Positions 14,290 to 22,463 of a stretch of DNA of 22,463 nucleotides are shown piece by piece. A program made the translations under genes and the position numbers. The notes below the pieces were generated by a model. That model saw only the letters and a list, made by a program, of their open reading frames with translations. It did not search any database and had not been told where the DNA came from. Every line of letters starts with the position of its first letter. Position 1 is the stretch's first letter. Source of the stretch: a virus; IMG/VR virus record IMGVR_UViG_3300046809_000137, positions 1 to 22,463 of that record; one strand, written 5' to 3'.

Positions 14290-15666
14290 TCAGCTCGTCA
14301 GCGACGAGGAGACGCGGCTGATCCGGCCCGTGTACTTCGGCGCCCGCACCGCGAGCGCGCAGTCCGAGACGATCGCGTAGGGCATCTGGTCCGGGGCGGA
14401 CGTCGTCGGATACACATCCAAGGGCTCCAGCTCTCGGACGTAGGGCCGCAGCAGGAACTGGGGGTCGCGGGCGATGAGGTAGATGTTCTCCGACCCCGCC
14501 GCCTGCGGCTTCATGGCCGCATTGGTGCCCACGTAGGCGGCCGGGATGTTGGCGGGAACGGTGGAGCCGTTCTTCGGGGTGAGCTTCGCGCCGTCGTCGA
14601 GGATCGACGTCGTGAGGATCGGCGTGACACCGTCCGCAGCGATACCGACGGTGGCGTCGACGTAGCCGAGGAACGTCTCCGCAGTCGTCGCCGTGGACCG
14701 GAACACCTTGTACAGGTTCGGCTGCGCGCCGTCGTAGCCGCCCGGCGTCGAGAACGACAGGGTGACCGTCGACGTGGCGCCCGTGGTGGTCTGGGAGACC
14801 TCGACGGACGGCAGGATCTCGCCCTGGCGGGCGATGACCGGCGCGATCTGGTAGTAGTACGTGGCCGCGGCCAGAGTGCCGCCGGTGGTGGCGGTCGCCG
14901 TGGTGACCGCACCCATCTGGTAGGACCGCGCCGACAGGAACGAGCTGGTCACCATCGGGATACCCCGGTAGGCCTGCACGTTGAGACCCGCGGCGACCTC
15001 GGTGGGGCTGAGGTAGCGCTGGTTGGCGATGGCGAGCTGCGCGATGCGCGACTCGGCGGTGGAGGACATGACGAACATCCAGCCCGGACCGTTGATCTTC
15101 ATGGCGGCCTGCTGCTCCACCATGTCGATGAGCTTGTCGAGCCAGCCCAGCGACAGCGAGGCGTTCGCGGCGTCGGCCGCGTTCTGGGTGCCGCCGGAGA
15201 ACGTGGACACGAGGCTGTCGAGGCCGTCGAACTGCGGGTAGCCGCCCAGCGACGTGGACCCGGAGTTGCCCCACAGGACGGCGTTCTCGATGTCCCAGTA
15301 CAGGCCCTGGATGGAGCCCTCGATCTCCTGCGCCCGCAGGTCCCCGGCAAGTCCGCGGGTGACGGCCTGCGCGTAGCCGGTGACGGCGCCGACGGACTGC
15401 AGGTTGCGGATCGTGAACTGGTTCTGCACGTAGGTCGAGTTGGTGACCGGGCGGGCCCCGCCGTCGGACACGAAGCCGCCTGCCGCGCGGGCGGTGCGCT
15501 GGTTGAAGTAGTAGACGTTGGAGTCCCACTTGCGGGTGGGGATGGCCCGCACGAGGGGGGCGTAGCGCCGCTGGTACTCCAGCAGCATCGGGTCGACGAT
15601 GGTCGGGGTGAGGGCGGCTGCGCCTGCGGCGGTCAGCGCCTCGCGGAGTTCGGCCTGGCTGGGCAT
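14290..15666 (-). CDS. Major capsid protein (HK97-type) with inserted Ig/FN3-like domain
   Basis: A 458-residue protein following the protease/scaffold gene. Residues 1-250 fit the HK97-like shell protein: an N-terminal helical arm, the P-domain helix region (DKLIDMVEQQAAMKINGPGWMFVMSS) and the IANQRYLSP-AYRGIPMVTSSFL strands. Residues 253-362 form a separate beta domain (TYYYQIAPVIARQGE, TVTLSFSTPGG, NLYKVFRST, TFLGYVDATVG) that looks like an FN3/Ig-type decoration on the capsid surface. The chain then returns to the core (IYLIARDPQFLLRPYVRELEPLDV, LAVRAPKYTGRISRV). ATG at 15666 has GGAAGG seven bases upstream; the open frame reaches 15738 but lacks a ribosome site and includes the upstream hairpin. 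No separate decoration protein is obvious downstream. Confidence 0.92.
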   Translation of the reverse strand: MPSQAELREALTAAGAAALTPTIVDPMLLEYQRRYAPLVRAIPTRKWDSNVYYFNQRTARAAGGFVSDGGARPVTNSTYVQNQFTIRNLQSVGAVTGYAQAVTRGLAGDLRAQEIEGSIQGLYWDIENAVLWGNSGSTSLGGYPQFDGLDSLVSTFSGGTQNAADAANASLSLGWLDKLIDMVEQQAAMKINGPGWMFVMSSTAESRIAQLAIANQRYLSPTEVAAGLNVQAYRGIPMVTSSFLSARSYQMGAVTTATATTGGTLAAATYYYQIAPVIARQGEILPSVEVSQTTTGATSTVTLSFSTPGGYDGAQPNLYKVFRSTATTAETFLGYVDATVGIAADGVTPILTTSILDDGAKLTPKNGSTVPANIPAAYVGTNAAMKPQAAGSENIYLIARDPQFLLRPYVRELEPLDVYPTTSAPDQMPYAIVSDCALAVRAPKYTGRISRVSSSLTS

Positions 15667-15700
15667 GGTGTTGCCTTCCGGCAGTGGTGGGTATGGCGAA

Positions 15701-15727
15701 GCCCCGCGCACGGGGTGCGGGCGGGGC
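15701..15727 (-). terminator. Terminator-like hairpin before the major capsid gene
   Basis: On the transcribed strand GCCCCGC (15727-15721) pairs with GCGGGGC (15707-15701) over a 13-base loop and is followed by TTCGCC. It lies in the 127-base gap between the protease/scaffold and capsid genes. The rest of the gap holds only the capsid ribosome site; I see no convincing promoter. Confidence 0.4.
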
Positions 15728-15793
15728 GGCGTGACCATCTCTGCCGAGCGGCACCAGCAGACGGCTGGCGGTCAGGTGGGGCGGGGCTGCGCG

Positions 15794-16255
15794 TCAGGCA
15801 CGGTCTCCGAGAATGGCGCTCACGGTCGCCGGGGAGACGTGCGTGCGGAACTCCTCGTCGGTGTACTCGTGGAGCGGCTTCGCGGGCCAGCCCTCAGGGA
15901 GGCCCGCACCGGCGACCGGCGCAGTGTGCTCGGTGACCGGGGCGACGAGACCCTTGCGGGCCGGCCCGCCGGTCGCTTCGACGTGCTCCTGCACGGCCTT
16001 CGGCAGGGCGGCGGCGAGACCTTCGGAGACGAGGCGGCTGATGCGCTGCTCTTCGGTCTCGGCCACCTCCGCCGCAGCCGGGGCCGCGGCCTCGACGACG
16101 GTGTCGGCCGCCGGAGCGGACTCGGTGGTGGGTGCCGGAACGGCGGCCGGGGTGACGGCGGCGAGGAGCTGCTTGAACTGGTCGTCGGTCAGGTGGACCC
16201 CACCAGCGGCGGGGGCGGCGGCCGTGTCGGCTGCCGGGGTGGTGGACTCCGCCAT
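15794..16255 (-). CDS. Possible separate scaffolding protein from an internal in-frame start
   Basis: Inside the protease gene, and in the same frame, ATG at 16255 is preceded by AGGAAGAGGAG (16262-16272) with a gap of about six bases, one of the best ribosome sites in the window. It would give a 153-residue protein, MAESTTPAAD..., made of the acidic, Ala/Glu-rich scaffold end with two helical pieces. This copies the lambda C/Nu3 plan, where a scaffold is made from an internal start in the protease gene. The exact start is clear in sequence, but whether it is used is inference. Confidence 0.5.
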   Translation of the reverse strand: MAESTTPAADTAAAPAAGGVHLTDDQFKQLLAAVTPAAVPAPTTESAPAADTVVEAAAPAAAEVAETEEQRISRLVSEGLAAALPKAVQEHVEATGGPARKGLVAPVTEHTAPVAGAGLPEGWPAKPLHEYTDEEFRTHVSPATVSAILGDRA

Positions 16256-17626
16256 GGCGGGCTCCTCTTCCTGGGTGGGGGTTTCGGCGACCGGTGAATC
16301 CGGCGCCGGAGTCTGGGTGCCGCCGTCGGCCAATCCAGCGGCAACAGCCGAACCGCTCTCGGCGAGTTGCACAGTCGGCGACTCAACGGCGGTCTCCATC
16401 GCGTCGTCGTCCTCGCCCATGCAGTGCACGCACTGGCCCTCGGCGCACTCGCACGGGCAGGCGCCAGGCGTCTCGGGGATCGCGCAGCCGCAGTCGCACG
16501 GGCACGGGGCGCCCGCGGCGGTCGCCGGTTCGTCGCCGTCCGGCGAACCCGGGGTGTCGACGTCGCCGTCCATGTCCGGGTCGATGTTCGCCAGGGTCTG
16601 GGCGGCACCGGCCATCGCAGCGCGGCCGACGGCGTCGAGGTCGTGGGGGTCGAGCGAGTACGAGGAGACGGTGACCGTGGTCGGCCCGTTCGTCAGCGAC
16701 ACGTACAGGTTTCCGGCATCACCGGAGTCCATGCCCCAGCACTCGGCGAGAGCCTCGGTCACCTGGATGGCGGGCTCGATCAGCCAGCCCTCTTGGGTGT
16801 CGACCGTGACGCCGAACTTCTTCAGGGCCTTGACGATGCGCTGCTTGATCCGCTTGAGCTGGGCGGAAGTGTAGTCGCGGGCGTTATCGGCCTGCCCGAT
16901 GTACGCCCATGCGGCTTTCGCCTTGGCCTTACTGGAGATGTCGTAGCGCTGCTTCTTGTCGGACTGGTAGCCCGGGTCGGCGTAGGCGGTGCTGTCTCCG
17001 GATAGGCCTGAGCCGCGCTTCGACACGGCCGGAGTGTCGGCCTCGGTCGTGGTGGTCACCAGCGCCTCCTGTACTGACTCATGGATCAGCACCCGTCCGT
17101 CGGATGCCGTCTCCGCCGGGGCGCTGGCGGCCTCCGCGGGGGTGAATGTGTCGACCTGAGCGCCGGGCACGCCGGGCTTCCTCGTGAAATCAAGCCCATC
17201 GAGTTCCAAGTCGTCACTGGTCTCAACGGGCGAGCCGTCTGGTCCCGGCTCCCGCCGCACCTTTCCCACCCACGCCCCGCGGATCGACACTCCGCGCAGG
17301 AACGGCGGCCCGTCGGTGTCGTCGACGAGAGCGGCGATCGTCTGGCCCGCCACCGTATTCACCAGGTCCGCGGTGTACTTCGCCGATCCGTCCTCCGCGA
17401 GGGTGACCGACGTGAGTCGACCGGCGATCTGCGTGGAATCGTCGTCGGCTGCATGGTGGGTGAGCATCGCCAGGGGCATCGAGCCCTCGTCGATGCGCTC
17501 TCGGGCCCGCTGTACGGCCTTCGCGATGTTCTCGACGGTGTAGAGGCGCCGGTTGCGGCTGATGCCGGGTACGAGCGCGGTCCCGGAGATGGTGCCGATC
17601 CGGCGCCCCATGATGCGTGCGGCCAC
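15794..17626 (-). CDS. Capsid maturation protease fused to scaffold, with Cys-rich insert
   Basis: A 610-residue protein just before the capsid gene. Residues 1-160 look like a prohead protease: SRNRRLYTVENI, then LTHHAADDD (H57/H58 as likely base) and FLRGVSIRG (S113 as likely nucleophile), the pattern of the S78/S80-type herpes-protease fold. About 213-275 is a compact basic helical domain (YADPGYQSDKKQRYDI ... QLKRIKQRIVKALKKFGV) common in actinophage proteases. Residues 375-402 hold nine Cys, 403-457 are disordered, and 458-610 form an acidic Ala/Glu scaffold-like end (DDQFKQLLAAV, EEQRISRLVSEGLAAALPKAV). GTG at 17626 has GGAAGG six bases upstream; the longer frame to 17998 overlaps the preceding gene. 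It should guide shell assembly, then cut scaffold and capsid termini. Confidence 0.8.
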   Translation of the reverse strand: MAARIMGRRIGTISGTALVPGISRNRRLYTVENIAKAVQRARERIDEGSMPLAMLTHHAADDDSTQIAGRLTSVTLAEDGSAKYTADLVNTVAGQTIAALVDDTDGPPFLRGVSIRGAWVGKVRREPGPDGSPVETSDDLELDGLDFTRKPGVPGAQVDTFTPAEAASAPAETASDGRVLIHESVQEALVTTTTEADTPAVSKRGSGLSGDSTAYADPGYQSDKKQRYDISSKAKAKAAWAYIGQADNARDYTSAQLKRIKQRIVKALKKFGVTVDTQEGWLIEPAIQVTEALAECWGMDSGDAGNLYVSLTNGPTTVTVSSYSLDPHDLDAVGRAAMAGAAQTLANIDPDMDGDVDTPGSPDGDEPATAAGAPCPCDCGCAIPETPGACPCECAEGQCVHCMGEDDDAMETAVESPTVQLAESGSAVAAGLADGGTQTPAPDSPVAETPTQEEEPAMAESTTPAADTAAAPAAGGVHLTDDQFKQLLAAVTPAAVPAPTTESAPAADTVVEAAAPAAAEVAETEEQRISRLVSEGLAAALPKAVQEHVEATGGPARKGLVAPVTEHTAPVAGAGLPEGWPAKPLHEYTDEEFRTHVSPATVSAILGDRA

Positions 17627-17631
17627 TGCGG

Positions 17632-18027
17632 TCACCTTCCGATCAGCGCGATGGATGCCTGCGGGTAGACCGGGTTGGTGCCGCCGAGGGTCCAGGTGAC
17701 GCGGCCCAGGTTCGGGAGGACCATGGCCGCCGTGCTGGGCATGTGGAGTCCGGCGAACGCGGAGGCACGCCCGGCCGATGTGGTCATCTGTGTGATCTTC
17801 GCGATGGCCGGATACCAGTTGCCGTCGGGGTCCTGCACGTCGAGTCCGACGTCGAGCGTGGGGGTCGTGCCGGTCGGCGTACCGACAACTGCGACGGCGA
17901 GCCACACATCGCTGATGTCGGTCAGGCTGATGACCGGGCCGTTCGTTGTGGCGGCGCCGGACAGGGTGGGCGGCGTGCCGGATGGGGTCAGGTTCCACAA
18001 GACCCGGGCCGGGCGGTAGATGCTCAT
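17632..18027 (-). CDS. Small beta-rich head protein (hypothetical)
   Basis: A 131-residue protein between the MuF-type gene and the protease. ATG at 18027 has TGGAG six bases upstream, and its TGA overlaps the ribosome site of the protease gene. The pattern of strands (GPVISLTDISDVWLAVAV, PTLDVGLDVQDPDGNWYP, MVLPNLGRVTWTL, YPQASIALIG) indicates a beta sandwich of about 120 residues with no membrane segment. The 'vqD.dG.wy..i......s' piece recurs in small virion proteins of actinophages in my experience, but no function is tied to it. It could be a head decoration or minor head protein. The family is not named here because I cannot confirm one. Confidence 0.7.
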   Translation of the reverse strand: MSIYRPARVLWNLTPSGTPPTLSGAATTNGPVISLTDISDVWLAVAVVGTPTGTTPTLDVGLDVQDPDGNWYPAIAKITQMTTSAGRASAFAGLHMPSTAAMVLPNLGRVTWTLGGTNPVYPQASIALIGR

Positions 18028-18040
18028 CGGGGTCTCCAGG

Positions 18041-19501
18041 TCATGTGAACCAGGCGGCGAAGTGGCCGAGGTCGACGGATGCGGATACGAAGCACCGGCA
18101 TCGCGGGTGCGCGGGCCACTCCGGCAGGTCGCCGGGCGCCCACGGATTTCCGGCTTCGTTGGCCTCGCAAGCCGGACAGACGCGGCCGTCGCCGACTGAC
18201 AGCCAGTCGCAGGTCAGTACGCCTTCGGACTGGTACAGGGCGAGCGCTCCCCCGGCGGCTGCGCTGGTGATGGCCCAGTCGGTGATGAAGCCGACGTCGT
18301 CGTCCGGATCGTCTTCGTCGGGGGTGAGAGCGTCTTCGGCGGCGTCGGTCATGGTGTCGCGGTCGTCGCCACGGTCGGCGCTCTGCTGAAGGATCCGGGC
18401 GAGCGAGGCTTCTGCTCGCCGGATGAGGCGGGTGAGCCATGTGTCCACGGCTGCGCCTGCGTCGTCGAGGCGTTGCACGTCCTGGTAGGCGTCGGCGAAG
18501 GCGGCGTTCCAGTCGAGGCCTGCGCGTCCTGCCTGCTCGGCGGCGACGGCCACAGCGTTGACCATGCCCTCGGCGTGGCCTGCATTGAGGGCGTCCCGGA
18601 GTGCGGCGCGGAGGGTGTGCCATGCGGGGAGGTTGGGGAGCGCGGCGAGCATGGCGGTTGCGGCCAGGGCTGCGGCGGTCTTCTGATCGTCGCTGTTGGC
18701 TTCGGTGAGTCCGACGCTGCGGCGGAAACTGTCGACGGTGGCGGTGATCGCGTCGCGGTCGACGAGTTGCCGCCAGGCGTCGGCGACGATCCGGGTGTGC
18801 TCGCGCAGTTTCTCCTCGCGGCGCCGGAAGAGGAGCGCCCACATCCCTTCGAGCTTGCCGAGGTCAACGGCGACTTCGAGGATGCGCGGATCGTCGGCAT
18901 ACTCGATCGCGGTCTGGACGGCGGCGGTGCTCGCGGCCTTCACTCGTTCCGTGAGCGGGCCTCCCGAGGCGGCCCACCCGGCAGCGAACGCCTCCCGCGC
19001 CGGGGCCGCGATGGGATGTTCCAGTGGGCTGTCGGTGCGGTCGGCGCCGTGGACTGCGGCCAGCGCGGCGAATTCCACCGGGGTAGCTTCGAGGCGGTCG
19101 AGAGGTGACGGCTCGTCGGCGGCGATGTAGGTCACGGTCATGTGGGCGCAATAGCCGTGGTCTCGCGGGATCTGGATGCCTCGTTCGGCGAGTGCGTCCA
19201 GGGTGTCGCGCCGCAGGTCTTCGAGGTCGGACGAGTCGATGAGAGCGACGATGACGTCCTTGTCACCGCCGGTGAAGCGAGCCAGTCCGGAGATCTGCGC
19301 CTTGACCGGCTTGCGGGCCGCCAGCTCTGCGACGACCTCGCGGAACTCGTCGCCATCAATGTCGTCCGCATCACCGAGGTAGACGACCGTGACGTGCATT
19401 TCGTCGGGCGGGAGGCCGCCTTCGACTGCCAGCTTCTCGGCGACTTCGGGCGGCGGATAGAGGGCGATCATGCAGCCGTCGGAGTAGTCCGGGGATGTCA
19501 C
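18041..19501 (-). CDS. MuF-type minor head protein fused to an N-terminal 2H phosphoesterase
   Basis: A 486-residue protein from GTG 19501, which has AGGGGG five bases upstream (a GTG two codons earlier at 19507 is possible). Residues 1-135 carry both signatures of the 2H/2'-5' RNA ligase superfamily: HVTVVYLG (H36, T38) and HMTVTYIA (H120, T122), about 84 residues apart, with the usual ferredoxin-like strand pattern between. Residues about 165-410 are helical MuF-like, ending in a Cys/His cluster CDWLSVGDGRVCPACEAN ... HPRCRC that is typical of the MuF C-terminus. MuF proteins bind the portal inside the head and are often ejected with the DNA. The 2H part could therefore act in the infected cell, on 2',3'-cyclic or 2'-5'-linked nucleotides. 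The substrate is not known. Confidence 0.8.
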   Translation of the reverse strand: MTSPDYSDGCMIALYPPPEVAEKLAVEGGLPPDEMHVTVVYLGDADDIDGDEFREVVAELAARKPVKAQISGLARFTGGDKDVIVALIDSSDLEDLRRDTLDALAERGIQIPRDHGYCAHMTVTYIAADEPSPLDRLEATPVEFAALAAVHGADRTDSPLEHPIAAPAREAFAAGWAASGGPLTERVKAASTAAVQTAIEYADDPRILEVAVDLGKLEGMWALLFRRREEKLREHTRIVADAWRQLVDRDAITATVDSFRRSVGLTEANSDDQKTAAALAATAMLAALPNLPAWHTLRAALRDALNAGHAEGMVNAVAVAAEQAGRAGLDWNAAFADAYQDVQRLDDAGAAVDTWLTRLIRRAEASLARILQQSADRGDDRDTMTDAAEDALTPDEDDPDDDVGFITDWAITSAAAGGALALYQSEGVLTCDWLSVGDGRVCPACEANEAGNPWAPGDLPEWPAHPRCRCFVSASVDLGHFAAWFT

Positions 19502-19516
19502 GGCCACCCCCTACCG

Positions 19517-19606
19517 TCAGCCGACTCGCTTCTTGATGAGCGGGAGGACGTCCTTTGCCCGCAGCGGGTGCGGGGGTTCCGGTGGCGGTTCAGGCGGCGT
19601 GCTCAT
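19517..19606 (-). CDS. 29-residue ORF overlapping the portal gene end
   Basis: ATG at 19606 is preceded by GGGAGGTGG with five bases to the start, an excellent ribosome site, and the frame ends with TGA at 19519-19517, filling the gap before the MuF-type gene. It overlaps the portal end by 17 bases. The peptide (MSTPPEPPPEPPHPL, then RAKDVLPLIKKRVG) has a Pro-rich start and a short basic helix. It could be a small head peptide, or a ribosome feeder for the next gene. No known family. Confidence 0.5.
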   Translation of the reverse strand: MSTPPEPPPEPPHPLRAKDVLPLIKKRVG

Positions 19607-21134
19607 CGACACCACCTCCCGGCAGTGATTCGAGCGCCTCACACAGGCGGCGCCGGTACAGGTCGCGGGCGGACTCGCGGGGTGGGTCGGCGCCCGGCGG
19701 CGGCTGACCTGCGGCCACCGCCTGCAACTGGGGCGGAACTGGGACCGGTTCCGGCTTCTGGACCGTTACCGGTTCGCCGTGTGCCGGGTCGGCCGGTTCC
19801 AAGGCGGTGCCACGCAGCTTGTTGGCGATGTTCGCCTTGCTCGCAGCGTCCATGTCCGCCCACTTGACCAGGTTTTCCCGGTCCACGAGCACGGCCTGGT
19901 CGCCACCGTCGACGGCAGGTTCGCCAATGTCGGCGCGGTAGCGGTCGAGCGTCCAGGAGCCGTTACGGAGCCGTGTGTCGCGGATCTTCTCGACGGTCTC
20001 ACTGTCGCGCATGTCGACATCACGGAACTTCAGCTTCCAGCCCTCGACGCCGAACCCGTTCTTCGCCAGGTGGAAGTTGAGGGCTTCCAGGACCAGTTCG
20101 GCGAGCGGCTGGCAGGTGTTGAGCATGAAGGTGCGGTCCTGCGCCTCACCCGTTCCGCCACCCAAGTTGCCGCTTTCGATGATGCCGACCTTCGACGGGG
20201 GCACACCGTAGGAGGCGATGATCTCGTCGCGCTTCTGGTTGAGGAACGCCAGGTAGTCCATGGTGCGGGACTGCGACAGCTCATCGACTGTCGCGCCGCC
20301 CTTGGTGTTGATCGGGTTGCCGATGTTGCGGGGTCCGATGTTGCGCTGTTGATACTGCGCGTTCCACCGGTTGATGTCCCCCGGCGAGGCCCCGGCCGGG
20401 TGGTCCACGTGCAGGACCGGCGGGCAGCCCTTCCGGAAGATCTCCTTCGACGTAGCAGCCGAGAAAAGCCACGACACGATCGGCAGCATCGCGGCCTGCG
20501 TCGGGCTGACACCGAACACCCCGGAGCGCGGCGAATCCAGCGAGATGTGGATGACGTCGCGCGGCTCGAACGTGGCCCGCTGGCCCAGCTCGGTCACCTG
20601 CACATAGCTGGTGATCGTGCCGTGCTCGTCGGCGATCGGCAGCATCGACGGGCAGTCCAGCGAATACAGGGCCACCGGCTGCTTACCGACCCACACCACC
20701 TCAATGAACGCGTCACCGAAGACGAGGAGGTCGGTGATGACGCCGCGGAGGATCTGCCGGATGTTCTCCCGCGGATTGCAGTAGCCGATCATCCGCTCCA
20801 GCAGCAGCACCTGCTGCGGCTTGTCCGGCTGCTCGTCGTCGCCTTCACCGTCATCGGTATCCCAGTCGGTGACGAGACCGCCCGCGGTGATGGTGCGGGA
20901 GATGGCGTTGACGGACGCCCACGACCAGGGGCAGGCGAGATAGGCCTCGTAGAGCTGGTTGAGCGTCGAGCGGCGGTCGGACTGGGTGGCCGCGCCGATG
21001 CCCTGGTTGGATTCGGTGAGGCCGCCGGGGCTGATGCCGTACTCGTAGCCCGCACGTTCCGGAAGCTTCGCCGGGGCGGTCTCCAGTACTTCGTCGCTGG
21101 AGCGCAGGCCGTTCCACCAGGTGCGCAGACTCAT
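19590..21134 (-). CDS. Portal protein
   Basis: A 514-residue protein next to the large terminase, overlapping it by four bases (ATGA), in the standard terminase-portal order. It forms the dodecameric ring through which DNA enters and leaves the head. Seen: LNQLYEAYLACPWSWASVNAIS near the start (clip/stem entry), the FIEVVWVGKQPVALYSLD strand, the ASYGVPPSKVGIIESGN ... AQDRTFMLNTCQPLAELVLEALN region of HK97-type portals, and a long polar, Pro-rich C-terminus (about 445-514) probably disordered. The ATG at 21134 has GGTGGAAG upstream. Size and motif order fit the Phage_portal family. Confidence 0.92.
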   Translation of the reverse strand: MSLRTWWNGLRSSDEVLETAPAKLPERAGYEYGISPGGLTESNQGIGAATQSDRRSTLNQLYEAYLACPWSWASVNAISRTITAGGLVTDWDTDDGEGDDEQPDKPQQVLLLERMIGYCNPRENIRQILRGVITDLLVFGDAFIEVVWVGKQPVALYSLDCPSMLPIADEHGTITSYVQVTELGQRATFEPRDVIHISLDSPRSGVFGVSPTQAAMLPIVSWLFSAATSKEIFRKGCPPVLHVDHPAGASPGDINRWNAQYQQRNIGPRNIGNPINTKGGATVDELSQSRTMDYLAFLNQKRDEIIASYGVPPSKVGIIESGNLGGGTGEAQDRTFMLNTCQPLAELVLEALNFHLAKNGFGVEGWKLKFRDVDMRDSETVEKIRDTRLRNGSWTLDRYRADIGEPAVDGGDQAVLVDRENLVKWADMDAASKANIANKLRGTALEPADPAHGEPVTVQKPEPVPVPPQLQAVAAGQPPPGADPPRESARDLYRRRLCEALESLPGGGVDEHAA

Positions 21135-22463
21135 GGGGCTTCCACCGTCCCCCCGGCGCGCGGCGCGTCATCGTCGTCGAACCACCAGGCGTCATCGTTC
21201 GGTGCGGTCTCCGCGGGGCGGACGGCCATCGTCGGGCCAAGCGGCTGCAGCACCTCGCCGATGGGCGCGGTCGGAACGTCGTCGAGGATGACGAATTCCG
21301 GGCCGGTGCCGAGGTTGGACAAGAGATAGCGAACAGCGTCGCTCGCATGATCATCTGCTGTGGTGTCGGCGTCCTCGGGGTCGCCCTTGGTGGCGTGCGG
21401 CAGGTTCGACAGCTCCCGGTACAGCTCGGTGACCGTCGAGAACATGTGCAGCTTCGGGCAGGTCGTCCAGCCGTGAGCCCGGTGGTGCGCACAGGCGGGC
21501 GCCTCGCCGAGGTAGGAGTGGACTCGCTGCCAGCCGTTGACGCGGCTCCCGGCGCCCTTGCCGGCCGGGGAGAGGTGTACGCCGTTGTCGGCGTACACCG
21601 AGGAGATCGGTTTGGCGTCGCCGCGGGTGGCCCACATGGCGTCGTCGGCGTACCGCACGGCGACATGTTCGCCGTCGGCTTCCGCTGCGAGGATCTGCTT
21701 GGCCTGCTCGTTTTCGCCGATGCCCCGCTGGTATATCTCCCGGTAGACCCAGACACGGCCGTCTTCGTCAACGGCTGCCCACAGGACAGCCCAGGGGGCG
21801 CTGAAGCCCCAGTCGATGCCGTTGTACCGCCGCCACGAGGCGGGCAGTGCGATCGGCTCGATGACGTGCCGGTCGCGCTTCAGCTCGGGGAACATCATTC
21901 CGGCGAACACGTCCCAGTCACCGTCCAGGAAGGCGGAGCGGAGTTTGCCGTCGAGGGCTTGGAGGTCTTGGGCGTACTCGGGGTTGACGTGCGGGTTGTC
22001 GGACAGCTTGGACGGGATGAAGCGCACGGTGCGGTTGCGGATGTCGGTGACGACGTTCGCCCCGTAGTTCGTGGGCTCGATATAGCGGGCCTTGACCGCG
22101 CCGTGGCCGGGGCCTCCCGGGTTGGTTCCGGAGCGGATCCCGAGGACGGGGATGTCGCGGCGGCCGGAGCGGAGGCGGGACTCCAGGAAGGAGCACACGT
22201 CGGGCGGGGTCAGGGTCCGCTCGTCGAAGATGAGCAGCTGGTACTGGCCGCCCTGACGCCGGGTGGCGTCCTGGACAGTCTCGGCATACCGGAACATGAT
22301 CAGGCTGCCGTTCGGGAACCGCAGCTCGTACTCGGTACCGTTCCAGCGAGCCCCAAGATCCTTCGCGAAGTTGAGGTTGACCAACTCGGCGATGAGCGAC
22401 TCTTTCAGCTCGCCGTAGGTGCGGCGGAAGGCGCCGACGCGCAGCCCCGGGTACTGCATACAC
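21131..22463 (-). CDS. Terminase large subunit (5' end cut by window)
   Basis: The gene runs off the right edge; the first in-frame ATG at 22459 is internal because the Walker A motif expected upstream is missing here. Counting from that Met: an adenine/sensor-like RRTYGELKESL (12-22), Walker B YQLLIFDE with D79/E80, a coupling motif SGTNPGG (110-116), then the nuclease domain with IDWGFS (D216), a VRYADDAMW acidic pair (D272/D273) and a C-terminal DDHASDAVRYLL (D369/D370, D374). This is the packaging motor ATPase plus the RNase H-like nuclease that cuts concatemers. The C-terminal end (DDAWWFDDDDAPR) is acidic and may bind the portal. It overlaps the portal start by four bases. Confidence 0.93.
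   Translation of the reverse strand, partial: CMQYPGLRVGAFRRTYGELKESLIAELVNLNFAKDLGARWNGTEYELRFPNGSLIMFRYAETVQDATRRQGGQYQLLIFDERTLTPPDVCSFLESRLRSGRRDIPVLGIRSGTNPGGPGHGAVKARYIEPTNYGANVVTDIRNRTVRFIPSKLSDNPHVNPEYAQDLQALDGKLRSAFLDGDWDVFAGMMFPELKRDRHVIEPIALPASWRRYNGIDWGFSAPWAVLWAAVDEDGRVWVYREIYQRGIGENEQAKQILAAEADGEHVAVRYADDAMWATRGDAKPISSVYADNGVHLSPAGKGAGSRVNGWQRVHSYLGEAPACAHHRAHGWTTCPKLHMFSTVTELYRELSNLPHATKGDPEDADTTADDHASDAVRYLLSNLGTGPEFVILDDVPTAPIGEVLQPLGPTMAVRPAETAPNDDAWWFDDDDAPRAGGTVEAP

Follow-up and report, generated by a model that had tools for sequence, protein, structure and literature searches.

A gene on the minus strand of the window, at 18041-19501, encodes a 486-aa protein in which a 2H phosphoesterase domain is fused to a MuF-like minor head body; the window is the whole stretch of DNA that was analysed, a virus contig of 22,463 bases. 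The two parts form one polypeptide, with neither a frameshift nor a stop between them, and this arrangement is kept in at least 18 relatives. The fusion had been reported at exactly these coordinates in a preliminary description, and it is real: a domain profile (PF13563), an AlphaFold2 fold and an invariant MuF Cys/His cluster all agree with it. The observation of a 2H-MuF protein is confirmed and chance is excluded. The explanation that we tentatively favour, giving it as a whole somewhat less than even credence, is that a MuF-type protein anchors a 2H phosphodiesterase, which would be delivered and would cleave a defence-related oligonucleotide.

The gene starts at a GTG at 19501, preceded by a ribosome site of the GGGGGT type, and ends with the stop codon at 18041-18043. 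Since the relatives have ATG or GTG at this same codon, the length of 486 aa and the numbering of the two catalytic histidines, H36 and H120, are correct. Another GTG, at 19507, was discarded as a start because the relatives begin at the 19501 codon. The minus frame is open along 18041-19501, and a reading of the plus strand was dropped, its frame being interrupted by stops.

The 2H domain occupies residues 1-160 (19022-19501, minus strand). PF13563 (2_5_RNA_ligase2) matches it above the cut-off, with E=2.2e-11, at residues 34-134 (32-132 counted from 19501), and phrog_2659 also matches the 2H part (5e-18). Two further profiles gave scores below their cut-offs: TIGR02258, the ThpR equivalog (3e-9, 36.8 bits against 65.7), and PF23474 (2e-4, 21.3 bits against 27), the profile of Acb1, an anti-CBASS nuclease that cleaves 3'3'-cGAMP and cyclic trinucleotides. 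The preliminary description had recognised two intact 2H motifs at normal spacing (HVTV at H36 and HMTV at H120), and structure prediction bears this out, as does the profile search: an AlphaFold2 model built on 63 aligned relatives has the 2H fold, with a pLDDT of 94.5. All the leading Foldseek and VIA matches of this model are 2H proteins, and every PDB match with E <=0.001 is a known or annotated member of the group. With its two HxT motifs, their normal spacing and a predicted bilobal 2H fold, the domain falls within the 2H superfamily.

Among solved structures, the highest VIA-align Z scores were obtained with the CPDase of D. radiodurans (drCPDase, 17.7), TT0787 of T. thermophilus (17.5) and a P. 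horikoshii protein (16.0), followed by E. coli LigT (about 15), human Usb1 and rotavirus VP3 (14 each) and Acb1 (11-12). The nearest folds are thus bacterial RNA 2',3'-cyclic phosphodiesterases, with Z from 17.7 to 15, and profile comparison gives the same order (drCPDase E=2e-11, phage Acb1 3e-3). These values, together with the place of Usb1, speak for the hypothesis that the domain acts on RNA, either opening 2',3'-cyclic phosphate ends in a LigT/ThpR-like healing reaction or working as a Usb1-like RNase; it would then counter RNA-cleaving defences or process host RNA after infection. An RNase role is also what the relevant passages of Iyer et al. 2017 (PMC5512222) favoured for fusions to MuF and portal proteins.

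The composition of the active site is less favourable to a role on RNA. The first motif, H36-V-T-V (19385-19396, minus strand), is followed by Y41, and the second, H120-M-T-V (19133-19144, minus strand), by Y125. In the alignment of 63 relatives H36, Y41, G43, F76 and H120 are invariant, T38 is conserved in 62, a Thr or Ser at position 122 in 61 and H115 in 55; in one of the relatives, L011, the first Thr is missing (HVP). If the domain works like LigT and Acb1, its two His would serve as general acid and base and the two Thr would hold the phosphate, a chemistry for which a metal would not be needed. Arg130 of the E. coli enzyme LigT lies five residues past the second His and coordinates both the phosphate and the water nucleophile (PMC5283653), and drCPDase, TT0787 and P. 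horikoshii PH0099 have Arg at the same H+5 position, their second motif being HITLAR or HITLGR. The window has HMTVTY there, as T4 Acb1 has HITLSY, and the first motifs of the two proteins are HVTVVY and HSTICY. With Tyr125 in place of Arg the domain therefore differs from LigT, and resembles Acb1, at a residue of the catalytic site, and this Tyr, found in 61 of the 63 relatives, argues against an RNA substrate.

RNA ligases are the usual partners of RNA end healing. Among 20 records carrying the 2H family, which may be incomplete, an RNA ligase (PF09414 or PF09511) was found in two and RtcB in none, and an RNA ligase is missing from all four records with the MuF fusion (54-81 kb, again possibly incomplete). 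This rarity also weighs against RNA healing, with the reservation that the records may be fragments and that a ligase of the host could do the work. On balance we give action on RNA less than even credence, but hardly less than the defence-related oligonucleotide to which we lean.

The link to Acb1 raised in the preliminary description found no support, since PF23474 does not reach its cut-off, bacterial 2',3'-cyclic phosphodiesterases are nearer in fold and the stacking and lid residues of Acb1 are not recognisable. The residues by which Acb1 contacts the nucleobases or forms its lid are Y12, W74, F107, E141 and W147 (PMC9117128). By motif register, a mapping at the level of sequence only, the first three fall on M11, T77 and H115, and the E141/W147 lid has no equivalent; outside the two motifs T4 Acb1 did not align to the 2H family profile. 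By its profile score, and as far as the sequence register shows, the domain does not look like an orthologue of Acb1, and it is not a standard LigT/ThpR enzyme either, because LigT Arg130 is replaced by Tyr, as in Acb1. We therefore class it as a 2H enzyme, and neither as ThpR nor as Acb1.

The rest of the protein, residues 162-486 (18044-19018, minus strand), is mostly helical and is joined to the 2H domain at an HPI motif. Its MuF identity is weak by single-sequence HMM: TIGR01641, aligned at residues 371-474, gave E=1e-3 and 19.5 bits against a cut-off of 39.65, and PF04233 matched six of 20 relatives (best E=1e-3) and not the window protein. As no family profile matched above its cut-off, the body is called MuF-like. 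A portal family, phrog_2662, matched residues 199-480 with E=5e-7. The identity is supported instead by a Cys/His cluster, by structural matches of the predicted model and by the place of the gene after the portal. The cluster, C442-x2-C445 ... H465-x2-C468-R-C470 (18092-18178, minus strand), never varies at C442, C445, H465, C468, R469 and C470 in 28 aligned relatives, and the full-length model (pLDDT 86) matches 'minor capsid protein' and 'phage head morphogenesis domain' models of BFVD over about 280 columns, in agreement with the MuF-like body and Cys/His end cluster first noticed in the sequence. With the body as query the phage collection yielded no match, so that its observed occurrences are confined to genomes of Streptomycetaceae and to viral contigs. 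When its profile was compared with solved structures, only chance matches came up, lambda integrase and others, and these were rejected.

The gene lies in a head operon on the minus strand, in the order terminase large subunit (21131-22459, reaching the window edge; phrog_2 E=1e-25), portal protein (19590-21134; PF04860 E=1.2e-28, phrog_12 E=3e-48), fusion gene, a 131-aa gene without Pfam match (17632-18027), a protein carrying DUF6582 that is probably the head maturation protease and scaffold (15794-17620; phrog_207 E=1e-7, PF20223 5e-11) and major capsid protein (14290-15738; PF17236 SU10_MCP E=2e-6). The fusion gene is directly downstream of the portal, as MuF and SPP1 gp7 genes are. A PADLOC search for defence systems returned no match. 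Two details of the cluster can be added. A 29-aa ORF, MSTPPEPPPEPPHPLRAKDVLPLIKKRVG, at 19517-19606 (minus strand), overlaps the portal stop directly upstream of the fusion gene; it ends in HPLRAKDVLPLIKKRVG and is kept between portal and MuF gene in relatives with and without the 2H domain. The probable protease/scaffold protein contains, besides DUF6582, a Cys-rich segment, CPCDCGCAIPETPGACPCECAEGQCVHC, which seems odd for a procapsid protein.

The relatives fall into fused and 2H-less alleles. A scan of viral contigs yielded 19 loci, of which 11 hold the complete fusion and eight only residues ~160-486; genome contigs added fusions in Streptomyces sp. ASQP_92 and S. xanthochromogenes and body-only proteins in S. 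turgidiscabies and Streptantibioticus, and a second scan added the fusions L031, L033-L035 and L037-L040. The 18 or more phages and prophages with the fusion include two Streptomyces genomes, and the MuF body stands alone in eight distinct relatives. Most 2H-less proteins start at the HPI motif, which in fused alleles stands behind the 2H domain. L018, for example, starts with GTG-GCG-CAT-CCC, and compared with the window it agrees at 83% in the upstream 136 bases and at 78% in the body, the 2H part being unmatched. In the tree of the body about five gains or losses are most parsimonious and at least two are forced by well-supported branches, the 2H-less L017 being nested in a fused clade. Median pN/pS is 0.35 for the 2H part and 0.42 for the MuF part, and the 2H domain is under purifying selection. 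The exact presence or absence, the tree and the pN/pS values together indicate that the 2H domain is a selected, exchangeable cassette. The comparison of related phages at the N-terminus, proposed in the preliminary description, thus showed gain or loss of the domain, the fused and 2H-less alleles sharing flanks and junction. No separate 2H gene occurs near the 2H-less MuF genes in the flanks examined.

A clean pattern of gain and loss argues against a need of the domain for assembly, and so against the view that its role is confined to structure or assembly, say in forming the procapsid vertex or in holding packaged nucleic acid, with no catalytic effector function. This view can appeal to the position of the domain on an assembly protein and to the broken first motif of L011, but a structural role alone would not require both catalytic His to be invariant, as they are in 63 diverse relatives with various carriers. 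We consider it improbable.

The place of the 2H domain is taken in some lineages by endonuclease genes. The upstream sequences of L017 and L009 agree at 96% as far as a point 18 bases ahead of the start codon; past that point L009 continues with the 2H domain and L017 with a gene for a 326-aa GIY-YIG endonuclease (4971-5951 of L017), followed by a bare MuF gene. The same GIY-YIG gene (83%) is present in L020 (4973-5953) and L021, and an HNH gene occupies the slot between portal and MuF in L022 (5091-5990) and L027 (7091-7990). In the 2H-less L018, L019 and L028 the slot is without an endonuclease gene. It may be that homing endonucleases drive the replacement of the 2H allele.

Beyond MuF, the same 2H family is found on several other head components. 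Among 49 ORFs with it, some counted under more than one domain, we found Phage_portal (6), Portal_Mu (2), Peptidase_S78_2 (6), Peptidase_S78 (5), a Mu-like protease (1), Phage_capsid_4 (4) and Phage_Mu_F (6), and a few ORFs with ART, zeta toxin or other enzyme domains. Its presence on portals, prohead proteases and capsid proteins fits a recruitment into the head, and the fact that many carriers are built into the procapsid is the best argument, short of proof, for packaging of the 2H domain. Phage LRRHood has a stand-alone 2H gene near thyX, outside the head cluster, so that head attachment is not required for every member of the family. The 2H genes of isolate phages mostly bear the label 'RNA ligase'; many of them adjoin portal, protease or capsid genes and sometimes an ADP-ribosyltransferase gene. 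Many GenBank genes of Gordonia, Mycobacterium and Arthrobacter phages called 'RNA ligase' belong by similarity to the 2H family, and the label is probably misleading for many actinophage 2H genes. The 'RNA ligase' of Thermobifida phage P318, which came up in the search for virion proteomics, was dropped, being an Rnl2-type enzyme and not 2H. In Gordonia phage Hanem (L003, 5749-7829) a 2H gene of the head region is followed at once by the gene of a VIP2-like ADP-ribosyltransferase, and Phlop (L004) has an ART-MuF fusion and a separate 2H gene.

Another possible substrate is Appr>p, in which case the domain would be tied to ADP-ribosylation. A 2H gene is near an ADP-ribosyltransferase gene of the head region in the two Gordonia phages examined, ART domains occur in some 2H ORFs, and the passages of Iyer et al. 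2022 (PMC9503650) on the subject place 2H proteins in this network. Against this, the scanned head genes of the window showed neither an ART nor a macro domain nor KptA, and the Z score with the plant Appr>p phosphodiesterase is only 12.6; we judge hydrolysis of Appr>p very improbable here.

In the favoured explanation, the MuF body would anchor a metal-independent 2H phosphodiesterase inside the procapsid, beside the portal. Packaging of the protein in the virion is likely, and its entry into the cell along with the DNA slightly more probable than not. Once in the cell, the 2H domain would hydrolyse an oligonucleotide made or cleaved by the host defence, and a signalling oligonucleotide (cyclic or 2'-5' linked, CBASS-like) is slightly more likely as substrate than a damaged RNA end. 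Purifying selection and the fusions of the same family to several head components support the plausible idea of a packaged, MuF-borne 2H domain that may counter nucleotide signalling. Counted against the favoured explanation are the fold, nearer to RNA 2',3'-cyclic phosphodiesterases than to Acb1, the Acb1 residues without clear counterparts, the HVP of L011, the stand-alone 2H genes that some phages carry and the existence of relatives without the domain. Literature searches found neither virion proteomics for phages with this 2H domain nor a packaging, ejection or substrate assay for this protein. A bolder proposal, which we think rather unlikely, is that the head-carried 2H proteins (HxTxxY/HxTxxY, Arg130 replaced, a conserved HG[YF]x[AP]H) are an enzyme class of their own with a substrate unlike those of LigT and Acb1: a virion-delivered anti-signalling phosphodiesterase, which head genes would gain and lose as the defences of the hosts change, with homing endonuclease genes in the slot in some lineages. 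If the 2H domain does enter with the DNA and destroy a defence signal, nucleotide-signalling immunity would be disarmed before the first phage gene is expressed, and the natural alleles with and without 2H in otherwise similar Streptomyces phages offer a clean way to test such a counter-defence.

Compared with known systems, the domain shares with ThpR/LigT enzymes (drCPDase 5h7e, TT0787 1iuh, E. coli LigT 5ldi) the nearest fold, the HxT/HxT set and an aromatic residue after the first motif, but it differs from them by Tyr at Arg130, His115 at Arg120, fusion to a head protein and a ThpR score below cut-off. With Acb1 (T4 57B, FBB1; Hobbs et al. 2022, PMC9117128) it has in common the 2H fold and HxTxxY in both motifs; T4 57B, however, is a stand-alone gene, whereas the window domain sits on a head protein, and no head-carried Acb1 was found in a literature search. 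The actinophage 'RNA ligase' genes of phrog_2659 and phrog_14859 (Gordonia, Mycobacterium, Streptomyces, Arthrobacter) belong to the same 2H family, at ~30-37% identity, but stand alone or are joined to a protease or to other proteins, unlike the MuF fusion of the window. Effectors on MuF-type head proteins of temperate and actinobacterial phages are likewise known from the MuF polymorphic toxins (PMC5576092) and the VIP2 ART-MuF proteins of actinophages (PMC7302621); there the effector is a C-terminal toxin with an immunity gene, while here it is an N-terminal 2H phosphodiesterase.

The closest precedent is the work of Iyer and colleagues, whose 2017 paper (PMC5512222), in the passages on these proteins, describes 2H domains fused to MuF or portal and proposes an RNase role or the degradation of defence nucleotides, and whose 2022 paper (PMC9503650), in the corresponding part, adds packaging and injection against immune signalling. 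The idea of a virion-borne 2H enzyme acting on signalling, put forward in the preliminary description, had therefore already been published. The window protein has the pairing described in 2017, a 2H domain and a MuF-like body in one polypeptide within a packaging cluster, as well as the same head context, proposed delivery and two candidate functions. It differs in its Streptomyces-phage lineage, its N-terminal 2H domain, the exact 2H-less alleles and the signal of selection, whereas the passages of Iyer et al. are predictions without biochemistry. The window is a well-supported further example of the fusion described in 2017, in a Streptomyces-type phage, and what is new is the lineage, the exact presence or absence of the domain together with estimates of selection, the slot taken by endonuclease genes and the change from Arg to Tyr with respect to LigT.
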